From an uncultured SAR116 cluster alpha proteobacterium (lineage in GTDB: Bacteria > Pseudomonadota > Alphaproteobacteria > Puniceispirillales > Puniceispirillaceae), in NCBI GenBank assembly GCA_902632595.1, contig CACPDC010000010.1, positions 1 through 64,000 on the forward strand: a DNA stretch of 64,000 nt, read 5' to 3'. Below the pieces are notes generated by a model. The model saw only the letters and a list, made by a program, of their open reading frames with translations. It ran no database searches and was not told the DNA's origin. This document shows positions 22,351 through 54,224 of this stretch, in pieces. Each line of letters starts with the position of its first letter. Position 1 is the stretch's first letter. The translations under genes were made by a program, and so were the position numbers.

Positions 22351-22452
22351 ACACATTTTTTAATGAATGTCGCAAGTATATAAAAGAATGAATAGGCATT
22401 CTCACGAATAAAAAACTAAAGAACTATTTACCTAATTTGAATGGGGACTTCC

Positions 22453-23040
22453 ATGATAAAACGCCTTTTAACAATATGTGCCGCAACTATTTTACTAGCT
22501 GCCTGTGAAACTGCATCGACTGACTCAAATGAGGTGGTTGGTTCTTCTAGCGGCACTTCGTCAGCTTCTGGTGCTGCAGCATCTGCTTCTTCTAACACAT
22601 CGTCAACTAGCAATATGGCTTCTGACTCGGCTTCCTCAGCATCTAGTGCTTCTAGTGCTGGCGGTTCTTCCTCTATTGGAAGCATCAAGTCTCCTGATGA
22701 ACTCTTAGCAAAAGTGGGTTCAACTGTCTATTTTGACTACGATCAGTCGACATTAACCGCTGAAGCGCAGGCCACTTTAGATAGGCAGGCAGCTTTTCTA
22801 AAAGCTAGCCCTAGTTTCAGAATAACAATTGAAGGACATTGCGATGAGCGCGGAACTCGTGAATATAACCTCGCCCTAGGTGACAGACGTGCATCTGCTG
22901 TTCGCGATTATCTAGTAGCAAAAGGGATTAACGCATCCCGCTTGTCGACAATCTCATATGGAAAAGAAAGACCAAGTGTCGGTGGATCTAACGAGACATC
23001 CTATTCTTTAAACCGTCGCTCTATTTCTAAGATTGATTAA
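22453..23040 (+). CDS. pal: Pal, peptidoglycan-associated lipoprotein
   Basis: Outer-membrane lipoprotein that binds peptidoglycan and TolB. From the ATG at 22453 (GGGGA seven bases upstream) it has 195 residues: a lipoprotein signal ending LLAAC (Cys18), a long linker of almost only Ser, Ala, Gly and Thr (about 20-75), then the OmpA-like domain with TVYFDYDQSTL and EGHCDERGTREYNLALGDRR. The linker is longer and more repetitive than in E. coli Pal. An ATG four codons upstream is in frame but badly placed. A strong terminator follows. Confidence 0.95.
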   Translation: MIKRLLTICAATILLAACETASTDSNEVVGSSSGTSSASGAAASASSNTSSTSNMASDSASSASSASSAGGSSSIGSIKSPDELLAKVGSTVYFDYDQSTLTAEAQATLDRQAAFLKASPSFRITIEGHCDERGTREYNLALGDRRASAVRDYLVAKGINASRLSTISYGKERPSVGGSNETSYSLNRRSISKID

Positions 23041-23054
23041 AAGAATTTTGGGGT

Positions 23055-23087
23055 AAAAAAGGCTTTGTTATCACAAAGCCTTTTTTT
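23055..23087 (+). terminator. Strong intrinsic terminator after pal
   Basis: AAGGCTTTGT (23059-23068) pairs perfectly with ACAAAGCCTT (23073-23082) around a TATC loop, followed by T residues to 23087. A-run and T-run make it work on both strands. It ends the tol-pal transcript before cpoB. Confidence 0.93.
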
Positions 23088-23168
23088 GACTCATTTTAGC
23101 CTTAAAATTACATTAAACGGAAAATTATTTTTTTTAATATTCCTTTGTGCCATAATTGGGAGTTGGTT

Positions 23169-51194: not shown

Positions 51195-52124
51195 TTAGGC
51201 AGGGATAGCGGCGACATTAGGTAAATTAGCAAAGCCTCTTATAGTCGAAATATCTTTTGAGTTTGTCTTGATAACATAGGAAGATTTATCGGCCATTAAT
51301 GTATGTAATAAATTTAAAGTCATAGCGTGTCCAGGTTTAAATGCTTCGAGCTTTCCAAAAATTGGCATACAAGTCAAAAACAAATCTCCTATACAATCAA
51401 GTACCTTATGACGGACAAACTCATCTTGCATTCGGAGTCCGTCGTCATTTAATATTTTACCACCGTCTACTACAACAGCGTTTTCAAGAGTTCCTCCTTT
51501 TGCAAGTCCAGCATGTTTCATGTTTTGTACATCGCGCAACATGCAAAAAGTTCGTGCTCCAGATATTTCATCAATATAGCTTGATGTCGAGAAAGAATAA
51601 TCTATTTTTTGTTTACCAATTCCTGGGTCCGGAAAATCAATGTCCAGACATATTTCAAGACTGGTGGAGGGTATAATACGGGCCCATGCACCATTTTCAC
51701 CAGTTACACTGATTTCTTTTAGAATTTGAAGATAACGAGTGGGATATTTTTGTTGTCTTTGTCCAGATTTGAGCAGAGCTTCTACTATAGGCGCCGCACT
51801 ACCGTCCATAATAGGCATTTCTGGACCGTCAACATATATATTTACGTTATCTATACCTACTGCAAAAAAAGCTGACATAAAATGTTCAATAGTATTAATA
51901 CCGATTCCTTCGTTATTCTCTATTCTCGTGCATAACATTGAGTTTGCTGTGTTACTAATATGAGCAGGTATTTTATTATCTTGGCCCTGAACGTCTTCGC
52001 GCCAAAAACAAATTCCAGTATTTGCTTCAGCAGGTTCGATTCTAGCCAATAATGCCCTACCAGTGTGAATTCCAATACCAGATAGGTAGAATGGATTCAT
52101 TATGGTTTTTTGCAAATAGTTCAA
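51195..52124 (-). CDS. lpxC: UDP-3-O-acyl-N-acetylglucosamine deacetylase
   Basis: Zinc amidase of the committed step of lipid A synthesis. I place the start at the TTG at 52124, giving 309 residues with N-terminus (M)NYLQKTIMNPFYLSGIGIHTG; GGAA sits six bases before it. The open frame reaches 52190, but that would run through a terminator-like hairpin. An ATG at 52100 lacks a ribosome site. Zinc ligands are present: His in NTIEHFMSAFFAVGIDN, and His and Asp in FVRHKVLDCIGDL. FtsH, encoded here too, degrades LpxC in other bacteria. Confidence 0.93.
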   Translation of the reverse strand: MNYLQKTIMNPFYLSGIGIHTGRALLARIEPAEANTGICFWREDVQGQDNKIPAHISNTANSMLCTRIENNEGIGINTIEHFMSAFFAVGIDNVNIYVDGPEMPIMDGSAAPIVEALLKSGQRQQKYPTRYLQILKEISVTGENGAWARIIPSTSLEICLDIDFPDPGIGKQKIDYSFSTSSYIDEISGARTFCMLRDVQNMKHAGLAKGGTLENAVVVDGGKILNDDGLRMQDEFVRHKVLDCIGDLFLTCMPIFGKLEAFKPGHAMTLNLLHTLMADKSSYVIKTNSKDISTIRGFANLPNVAAIPA

Positions 52125-52134
52125 GACAATTCCG

Positions 52135-52179
52135 ATAAATAAAAAATTACCCAGACACATTATTGATTGTCTGGATAAT
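52135..52179 (-). terminator. Intrinsic terminator or attenuator between ftsZ and lpxC
   Basis: On the minus strand ATTATCCAGACA (52179-52168) pairs with TGTCTGGGTAAT (52157-52146), 12 pairs with one G-U, around a ten-base loop, followed at once by TTTTTT and further T-rich sequence. It lies about 12 bases before the lpxC start codon, so it would cut lpxC off from the dcw transcript unless read through. Confidence 0.85.
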
Positions 52180-52218
52180 TCACAAATCACATTTAGTTAC
52201 AAATTGTTGCAGGCACCT

Positions 52219-54093
52219 CTAATTGGCCTGACGTCTCAAAAAGGCTGGTATGTCTAAGTCATCGGAATCTTCTTCAGACGGTGTTTCTCTAAAAATCATT
52301 GTTGCCTGCTCATCTGACGCACTCGGCAAGTCAAGAATATTTGGTTTCTCAGCTAAACCAAATGTAGGTTCAGTCATAGCCCTACTTTTCTGCTGCTCAA
52401 CTTCGTTTTCCAGGGGTGTTGATAAAGATGATAGAGAGGGGGTGTTTCCAGAAATTGAACTTAGCGGGGAAGATGACAGAAATTTTTCATTCTCACTTTC
52501 CATGGCTTGCGGTGCACCCCATATCTTGGAAATTCTACTCATTAGGCCGCTCTTTTGTTTCGTTGGCGCATAACTTGCATCTGGAGACATCGGTTTGGTT
52601 GGCTCTGGAATAAAAGGCGATTTGGATTTACTCTCTGTTTTATCATGCTCCCTAGAGGACCCATCGGTATTTTTAAGAGTGGGAGAATTTTTAGGATTTG
52701 CTTTTTGGGGAGCGATTAGGTCTACATTTTTGATATCTTCAGATGAAGAGGAGGAAAATTCTTTTTCATTGACCAAATTTTCTTCTGGTATTTTATTTTT
52801 CTCTTCATATGAACCCTCAGTTTTTCCTTCATTTAAACTAAGCGGAGTTTCTGACTGATTCTCAATATAACTCGGATCTTTCGCACCACTCTTTTCCAAA
52901 ATCTCTGCCTTGTCATACCCCTCTTTGTTCATTTTATGGTTTTCCATTGGCGGAGATAATTTATCCGCAAAACCACCTACTTTTCTTGTTTCTGAAGCGC
53001 AGTTTTCTGTATCTCTTAGAATGGGGGGGGTTGATGAAAATAATCCAGGAATAGGATTTATTTCTTGTTTATCTGACAGGTTTGAACTGTATGTTTGCGT
53101 AACGGCATTAGAGGCGCTTTGCTCAGCTGCTTCAAATCCAGTGGCAACAACGGAGACTCTTATAATACCCTCTAATCTGTCATCGAATGCGGAACCGAAG
53201 ATTATTGTTGCATCCTCATCTACTTCCCCGCGAATTCTATTAGCAGCTTCGTCAACCTCAAATAATGTCATGTCCATACCACCCGTTATATTTATTAATA
53301 ACGCTTGGGCACCTTGCATAGTGGTATCATCCAATAACGGATTATTAATTGCTGCCTCCGCAGCCTCAATAGCTCTATTTTCACCAGTTCCTTCACCAGT
53401 ACCCATCATTGCTTTACCCATTTCTGTCATGACTGAACGAATATCGGCAAAATCTAAGTTGATTATACCGGGCTTTATCATTAGGTCAGTTACACCGCAA
53501 ACGCCTTGGTGCAAAACAGCATCTGCCATGCCAAAAGCATCTGCGAATGTTGTTCTTTCGTTAGCAAGTCTAAACAAATTTTGATTTGGAATTACAATGA
53601 GGGTGTCGACGTAGCCCTGAAGGGCGCTAATACCCTCATCGGCTTGCTCCATTCGTCTTTGTCCCTCAAAAGAAAATGGCTTTGTAACCACTCCAACTGT
53701 AAGAATGCCTTTATCCTTAGCAGCTTTGGCGATAATGGGCGCCGCCCCAGTACCGGTGCCACCACCCATACCTGCGGTGATGAATACCATATTGCTATCA
53801 TTTAATTCTGCTAAAACTTCTTCCATACTTTCCTCTGCGGCAAGTCTACCCATTTCTGGTTTTGACCCGGCTCCCAAACCTTGCGTAACTTCGGAACCGA
53901 GCTGTATTTTTCGAGGTGCAATTGAATGTGATAATGATTGACCATCAGTATTTACAACTAAAAAGTCTACTCCTTCCAGATTTGCATTTATCATATTATT
54001 CACAGCATTACATCCTGCGCCGCCAATGCCGACAACGGTAATTTTGGGACGCAATTCCTGAGTTGTTTGTGGGATTGTTAGATTTATAGGCAT
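52219..54093 (-). CDS. ftsZ: Cell division GTPase FtsZ
   Basis: Tubulin-like GTPase forming the Z ring. From the ATG at 54093 (GGAG seven bases upstream) it has 624 residues. The core (about 15-320) has [10 protein letters not shown], the signature [13 protein letters not shown] and the NLDFADIR synergy-loop region. A very long polar, Ser/Glu/Lys-rich linker covers about 330-605, followed by the conserved C-terminal peptide [13 protein letters not shown] that binds FtsA. The linker is several times longer than in E. coli, as in other Alphaproteobacteria. ftsA precedes it by 132 bases. Confidence 0.97.
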
Positions 54094-54224
54094 TATACAC
54101 TCCATGATAATAAGTTAGTTAAATAGGCTAAAGTTTGCTCTTGAGTTAATGTTCAAGAAGCCGTTCGGGTGACTTGGGTAATCTAAAATAATACAAATTG
54201 TTTAGGGACATTAGTTTCCTCCTT

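Follow-up and report, generated by a model that had tools for sequence, protein, structure and literature searches.

A predicted lpxC promoter interleaved with a terminator-like hairpin after ftsZ in a SAR116 alphaproteobacterium and its relatives

Introduction

How is lpxC transcribed when a terminator-like hairpin stands between it and the cell-division gene ftsZ, a few bases before its own start codon? LpxC, whose amount needs tight control, commits carbon to lipid A. The question arises in the window, i.e., the whole stretch of 64,000 nt analyzed here, taken from a SAR116 cluster assembly of 1.68 Mb that is 73% complete. An earlier note had read the hairpin as an attenuator or a partial terminator that splits lpxC from the division genes, and held that no room was left there for a promoter.

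The gene order given in that note (ftsZ, lpxC, bamD, recN, and ligA) agrees with the NCBIfam matches, which identify these five genes and ftsA. The ftsZ gene (52219..54105, minus strand; TIGR00065) is followed on the same strand by lpxC (51195..52124; TIGR00325), which encodes 309 aa from its likely start, the TTG at 52124-52122. Comparison by eye found TTG or GTG at this codon in all seven same-genus loci, and a Shine-Dalgarno-like GGA (52131..52133, minus strand) has a GGA or AGG counterpart in them. The longest lpxC frame, already regarded as false in the earlier note, begins at a GTG at 52190 that falls within a conserved promoter element, and it is interrupted by a stop in three of the six same-genus relatives.

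The hairpin between ftsZ and lpxC

The hairpin occupies 52144..52181 of the minus strand. Its 5' arm (52181-52168, GAATTATCCAGACA) and its 3' arm (52157-52144, TGTCTGGGTAATTT) form a stem of 12-14 pairs around a 10-nt loop (52167-52158), and a run of six T (52141..52146, minus strand), a U tract in the RNA, ends 16 nt from the start codon of lpxC. The minus-strand RNA from 52200 to 52120 folds at -17.7 kcal/mol (z -2.63), a value equaled by 2 of 200 shuffles, and within the 54 nt that follow the -35 TTG the stem reaches p = 0.005 against 200 dinucleotide shuffles, which is the floor of the test. The stem and T run claimed earlier are real, and the stem exceeds the shuffled expectation.

When the window was scanned end to end for stems, the hairpin ranked second (score 29) of those followed by 5 or more T in 8 positions, and no stem with at least this score and T content was found in six shuffled windows (one strand each). 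The top-ranked stem (23050-23090, near 23070; score 32) has T runs on both strands, as in a bidirectional terminator, and directly follows the frame 22441-23040. A standard terminator scan of the window does not list the ftsZ-lpxC hairpin; that scan permits loops of 3-8 nt, and this loop has 10. The stretch is not a dispersed repeat, since the 96 nt that contain the hairpin have a single match in the genome.

The hairpin resembles a Rho-independent terminator in having a stable, GC-bearing stem-loop, with the T6 directly after it at 52146-52141 in the window species, and in its place after ftsZ. However, it differs from such a terminator in sharing bases with a conserved promoter, the -10 of which falls inside the loop, and in that close relatives do not retain the U tract. 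The earlier note had suggested looking for the hairpin in relatives, and a significant stem was indeed present in each of the six same-genus relatives with an identified lpxC (three further genomes of the genus gave no lpxC and are outside this count), while a T run longer than four after the stem occurs at the window's locus alone among the seven.

A predicted, conserved promoter before lpxC

Seven nucleotides after the ftsZ stop begins a conserved 29-nt element (52183..52211, minus strand; TGCAACAATT TGTAACTAAA TGTGATTTG) that consists of three direct repeats with a 10-bp period, the last of which merges with a predicted -35, TTGTGA (52180..52185, minus strand). By column statistics, TTG alone is conserved in this hexamer, which is separated by 17 nt from a predicted -10, TAATGT (52157..52162, minus strand). 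Five of the six bases of the -10 lie within the hairpin loop and the last one within the stem.

The form TANNNT is conserved in the order and in the class. Its fixed positions T29, A30, and T34 are invariant in an alignment of 15 loci; they reach 0.73, 0.80, and 0.77 in 56 loci of the order and 0.82, 0.80, and 0.65 in 84 loci of the class, two sets that have 16 loci in common. With a conserved -35 TTGNNN, a 17-nt spacer, and a -10 TANNNT, all of which emerge from comparison of sequences, the element and the hexamers are a predicted sigma70-type promoter of lpxC. From its position we infer a transcription start region at 52148..52152 (minus strand), about 7 nt past the -10, with the start at about 52150 and thus in the 3' arm of the hairpin. 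The view that no room remained for a promoter was mistaken: the promoter overlaps the hairpin, with its -35 before it and its -10 in the loop.

The same placement bears on the attenuator proposal, in which an attenuator or partial terminator within the lpxC transcript would tune LpxC. The stem and T6 do lie close upstream of the lpxC start codon, but the 5' arm is upstream of the predicted start, so that RNA initiated at lpxC could not form the hairpin. The hairpin would be carried by read-through RNA from ftsZ alone, which makes attenuation of lpxC's own transcript unlikely; provided that the promoter call is right, the hairpin is outside the transcript that it was supposed to control. In addition, the sole Rfam match in 51900-52500, STnc240 with E 0.81, scores 22.4 bits and is far under its threshold of 55. 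Attenuation was rejected as the main reading and is now very improbable. What stood of the earlier proposal is the terminator-like hairpin between ftsZ and lpxC and, as a plausible role, the partial termination of read-through.

Conservation of the element

The element region precedes or replaces the hairpin region in all seven same-genus loci and in 56 lpxC upstream regions of the order, one of which (L039) is shortened by a contig end. The order consensus is about TGCAACAATT-NGTAACCAAA-TGTGATTTG. When TGNNACANNNNGTNACNANNNGTGATTTG was used as the search pattern with at most two mismatches, it was found directly before lpxC in 51 of the 61 genomes of the order set. The remaining 10 comprise five genomes in which lpxC was not found, four of genus g3, and one with the contig-shortened locus. 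The reversed pattern used as a control had no match in the 61 genomes, and the true pattern had six matches away from lpxC, genomes G021 and G027 of genus g3 being among those concerned. A special pattern was needed for five loci of the order, i.e., L039 and the four of genus g3. In the latter (L012, L014, L016, and L022), the element is longer by one or two bases, a variant that escapes the pattern, and strong stems stand before the element, their 3' arm reaching into the first repeat.

The element extends beyond the order. Of 385 genomes sampled from the class (SAR116 order included), 155 contain a match to the pattern and 3 a match to the control pattern. An exact scan of named genomes gave at least 80 loci (L096-L175). 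In 76 of the matches listed, a co-directional lpxC follows at 54-292 nt, and in 4 it was not found, a rate that describes the matches listed and is no prevalence. Azospirillum brasilense (L106) is among the named genomes that carry the element before lpxC. Where a listed locus has enough sequence, ftsZ is found upstream and co-directional in 48 of 52 cases.

A less biased estimate was obtained from 114 class genomes, one per genus and at least 90% complete except for the window's own. LpxC was found in 96 of them, and 94 upstream regions outside the SAR116 order were read with a scoring profile trained on SAR116 order loci alone. The maximum of 188 control scores was exceeded by 60 of the 94, and the 99th percentile of the controls by 69. 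No description of the element was found in the openly licensed literature searched, as far as those sources extend, and it may be described elsewhere.

Recurrence and nature of the hairpin

Stems recur around the -10 in this comparison. Within the order, the 54 nt that follow the -35 contain a significant stem at 24 of 55 loci (L039 being too short for the test), where 2.75 would be expected; 22 of the 55 are centered on the -10 by their symmetry center, and 19 flank it by a strict rule. The class test covered the 69 higher-scoring of the 94 loci, with stems at p<=0.05 in 20 (3.5 expected) and at p<=0.01 in 14 (0.7 expected). All 14 of the latter have their symmetry center at 18.0-23.5 nt, where the -10 occupies 20-25; control windows reached p<=0.01 in 1 of 67 cases downstream and 7 of 69 upstream. 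Among the matches listed in the named class set, from which the 16 loci duplicated in the order set were left out, stems were less frequent: p<=0.05 was reached by 9 of 68 (3.4 expected), five of which flank the -10, and p<=0.01 by 6.

A chance hairpin without function, the promoter alone being of importance, is scarcely credible as an explanation: the element does occur without a hairpin in many lineages, but against it stand the significant -10-centered stems of the order, the excess at p<=0.01 in the class, and the mutual exclusion of stem positions in one family described below.

The fixed symmetry center raises the question of whether the inverted repeat works as DNA, e.g., as a repressor operator or a cruciform on the -10 that controls initiation at lpxC. 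Against this possibility, the letters of the arms turn over between genera and the pairing stays, although the pairs were picked as best stems, so that the table leans to pairing. Furthermore, the non-Watson-Crick positions of 40 stems comprise 25 G.U, 6 A.C, and 11 others (p 0.0035; G.T and A.C penalized alike), and an excess of G.U over A.C is not predicted for a duplex palindrome. When one stem per genus was retained, G.U remained more frequent than A.C under each of six settings, but p ranged from 0.002 to 0.6, so that the argument becomes weak after thinning. The G.U excess leans to an RNA hairpin on the lpxC-sense strand, made by read-through from ftsZ, and a function of the repeat as DNA is judged improbable.

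The position of the stems was informative in family f1, to which the window belongs. A -10 stem is the sole one in 12 of its 34 loci and a stem before the element in 16, whereas 3 loci have both kinds and 3 have none, an exclusion with a Fisher p of 0.0003 that is no strict probability, as the loci are related. The gap between ftsZ and the element measures 6-28 nt in loci with a -10 stem and 26-173 nt in the others. This exclusion, which like the recurrence of stems comes from comparison of the sequences, fits a terminator or a boundary between the two messages.

A tract of 5 or more T in 8 stands after 17 of 45 -10 stems, as compared with 7.8% of matched positions in 129 stemless loci. The other 28 lack such a tract, yet the stems are non-random, which is what would be expected if the stem in the read-through RNA were a processing or 3'-protection hairpin (an RNase III/E boundary), so that the messages were split after transcription. 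The enrichment of T tracts is at odds with this explanation. So is the finding, made by eye, of T runs after about 10 of the 19 significant gap stems upstream of the element in family f1. Processing is consequently considered unlikely, although it survives better than the other alternatives.

There are also lineages in which neither structure is present. A -10 hairpin or gap stem is absent from all nine f4 loci (L035-L037, L042-L045, L048, and L049), in which the element is present, and from the five f2 loci of genus 15 in which the ftsZ stop was found. Read-through from ftsZ into lpxC may be free in the f4 loci. The missing T tracts and these stemless loci indicate that termination is no general requirement.

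A probable terminator and promoter in one stretch

The reading that we consider probable is that a promoter and a terminator share the short ftsZ-lpxC junction, so that lpxC is started separately and read-through is stopped. According to this model, lpxC would be transcribed from its own sigma70-type promoter, starting near 52150, and the arms of the hairpin would take up free spacer sequence and the initial bases of the transcript, while the loop would carry the -10. A polymerase arriving from ftsZ would transcribe the full hairpin and the U tract and would be stopped fully or partly, whereas one that starts at the lpxC promoter would make an RNA without the 5' arm and pass unhindered. The supply of LpxC would thereby pass from the division operon to a candidate factor that binds the triple repeat. 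The most likely function of the hairpin is then to end stray cell-division transcripts, and termination is likely in the window species, whose stem has the T6. The missing T tracts, the stemless loci, the lower stem frequency in the named class set, and the weakening of the G.U excess count against the model, as does the point that stems before the element would insulate lpxC as well as stems that overlap the -10.

A related arrangement has been described at the end of the dcw cluster of Burkholderia cenocepacia, where lpxC is also transcribed separately from ftsZ; it differs in that a gene lies between the two and no terminator is predicted after ftsZ (PMC7761207).

Element copies at glmU, glmS, and an mlaA-like gene

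The element was also found away from lpxC. A selection of 17 second-site regions from the multi-hit genomes of the 385-genome sample has it before glmS in six cases, glmU in three, an mlaA-like gene in one, and lpxC in three, and the remaining four look like chance or coding matches. Two GlmU and three GlmS proteins have NCBIfam matches above the cut-off, and the other second-site proteins were named by eye; the match of the MlaA-like protein is below its cut-off. The copies before glmS (L213-L215 and L219-L221) are 32-91 nt from the gene and come from three families of Alphaproteobacteria. The copy before the MlaA-like lipoprotein gene (L218:1551-1579, plus strand) has two mismatches.

For glmU, a follow-up in 57 class genomes gave scores above the control maximum in 21 of the best 30 loci, 19 of them clearly, including the one that was the source of the query. 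At the glmU loci (L222, L223, L228, and L391-L420), a GGCANNNT-like -10 was noted by eye instead of TANNNT. For glmS, only 2 of 28 class loci were just above the control maximum, and inspection by eye places both matches within glmU coding sequence, which leaves glmS unsupported in this sample. Neither glmU (30 loci) nor glmS (29 loci) is preceded by a convincing element in the SAR116 order.

These data allow a broader reading, which we put forward tentatively and with slightly more doubt than belief: an undescribed alphaproteobacterial regulon in which the triple repeat at the lpxC and glmU promoters would couple the supply of UDP-GlcNAc to the commitment to lipid A, and in which an RNA hairpin at lpxC would often hold the -10 in its loop, with the result that lpxC messages would be marked by their origin.

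Candidate regulators

Direct repeats with a period of about 10 bp are typical of the sites of OmpR-family regulators, and the element has them. We infer that a regulator could bind it. The MraZ box is made of the direct repeats TGGGN/GTGGG, and the letters of the element differ from these by eye. A same-genus genome (G004) encodes three OmpR-type regulators, which we take, from similarity and gene order, to be PhoB, ChvI, and a CenR-like protein, and the ChvI-like gene adjoins one for a presumed ChvG-like kinase; in NCBIfam, neither these regulators nor the kinase reach the curated cut-offs.

ChvI is found in 48 of 60 element-bearing genomes as compared with 8 of 22 element-poor ones (p 0.0004). 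As the regulator of the element it was nevertheless rejected, being absent from 12 of the 60 at the cut-off used. CenR was set aside as well, as the CenR-like protein has no clear co-occurrence with the element (p 0.14), and no match at E 1e-40 was found in 26 of the 60 element-bearing genomes. BLAST grouping, which left L380 and L387 unclassified, found no OmpR-type group common to genomes G004, G065, G068, G070, and G150, which are 93-99% complete.

The CenR site of Rhodobacter sphaeroides, given as TGA-N8-TGA (PMC9275681), resembles the element in its direct repeats, 10-bp period, and position upstream of envelope gene promoters; the element differs in having three repeats of GTAACA-N4, a consensus that, compared by eye, does not fit TGA-N8-TGA. 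The main text of the same report does not mention lpxC or ftsZ. For ChvI, the sites listed in PMC9731502 are TTGC-N3-GCAA in Caulobacter and N-GCC-N8-GCC in Sinorhizobium, and neither motif matches the element. A point of likeness to ChvI is that ChvGI activates transcription of lpxC in Caulobacter, as stated in a 2025 review (PMC12444477), and a ChvI-like regulator is encoded in the same-genus genome G004.

The same review reports that lpxC transcription responds to NtrYX in R. sphaeroides and Caulobacter and that the FtsH degron is missing from the LpxC of two Alphaproteobacteria (PMC12444477). A study of R. sphaeroides detected no NtrX site in the region upstream of lpxC (PMC7240162).

Implications

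If the model is true, read-through RNA would carry the hairpin and lpxC RNA from its own start would lack it. The overlap of terminator and promoter would mean that lpxC can leave the division operon with as few as 7 nt between ftsZ and the element. In the search for a direct switch of lpxC, the 29-nt element offers a concrete target, i.e., the protein that would bind it.
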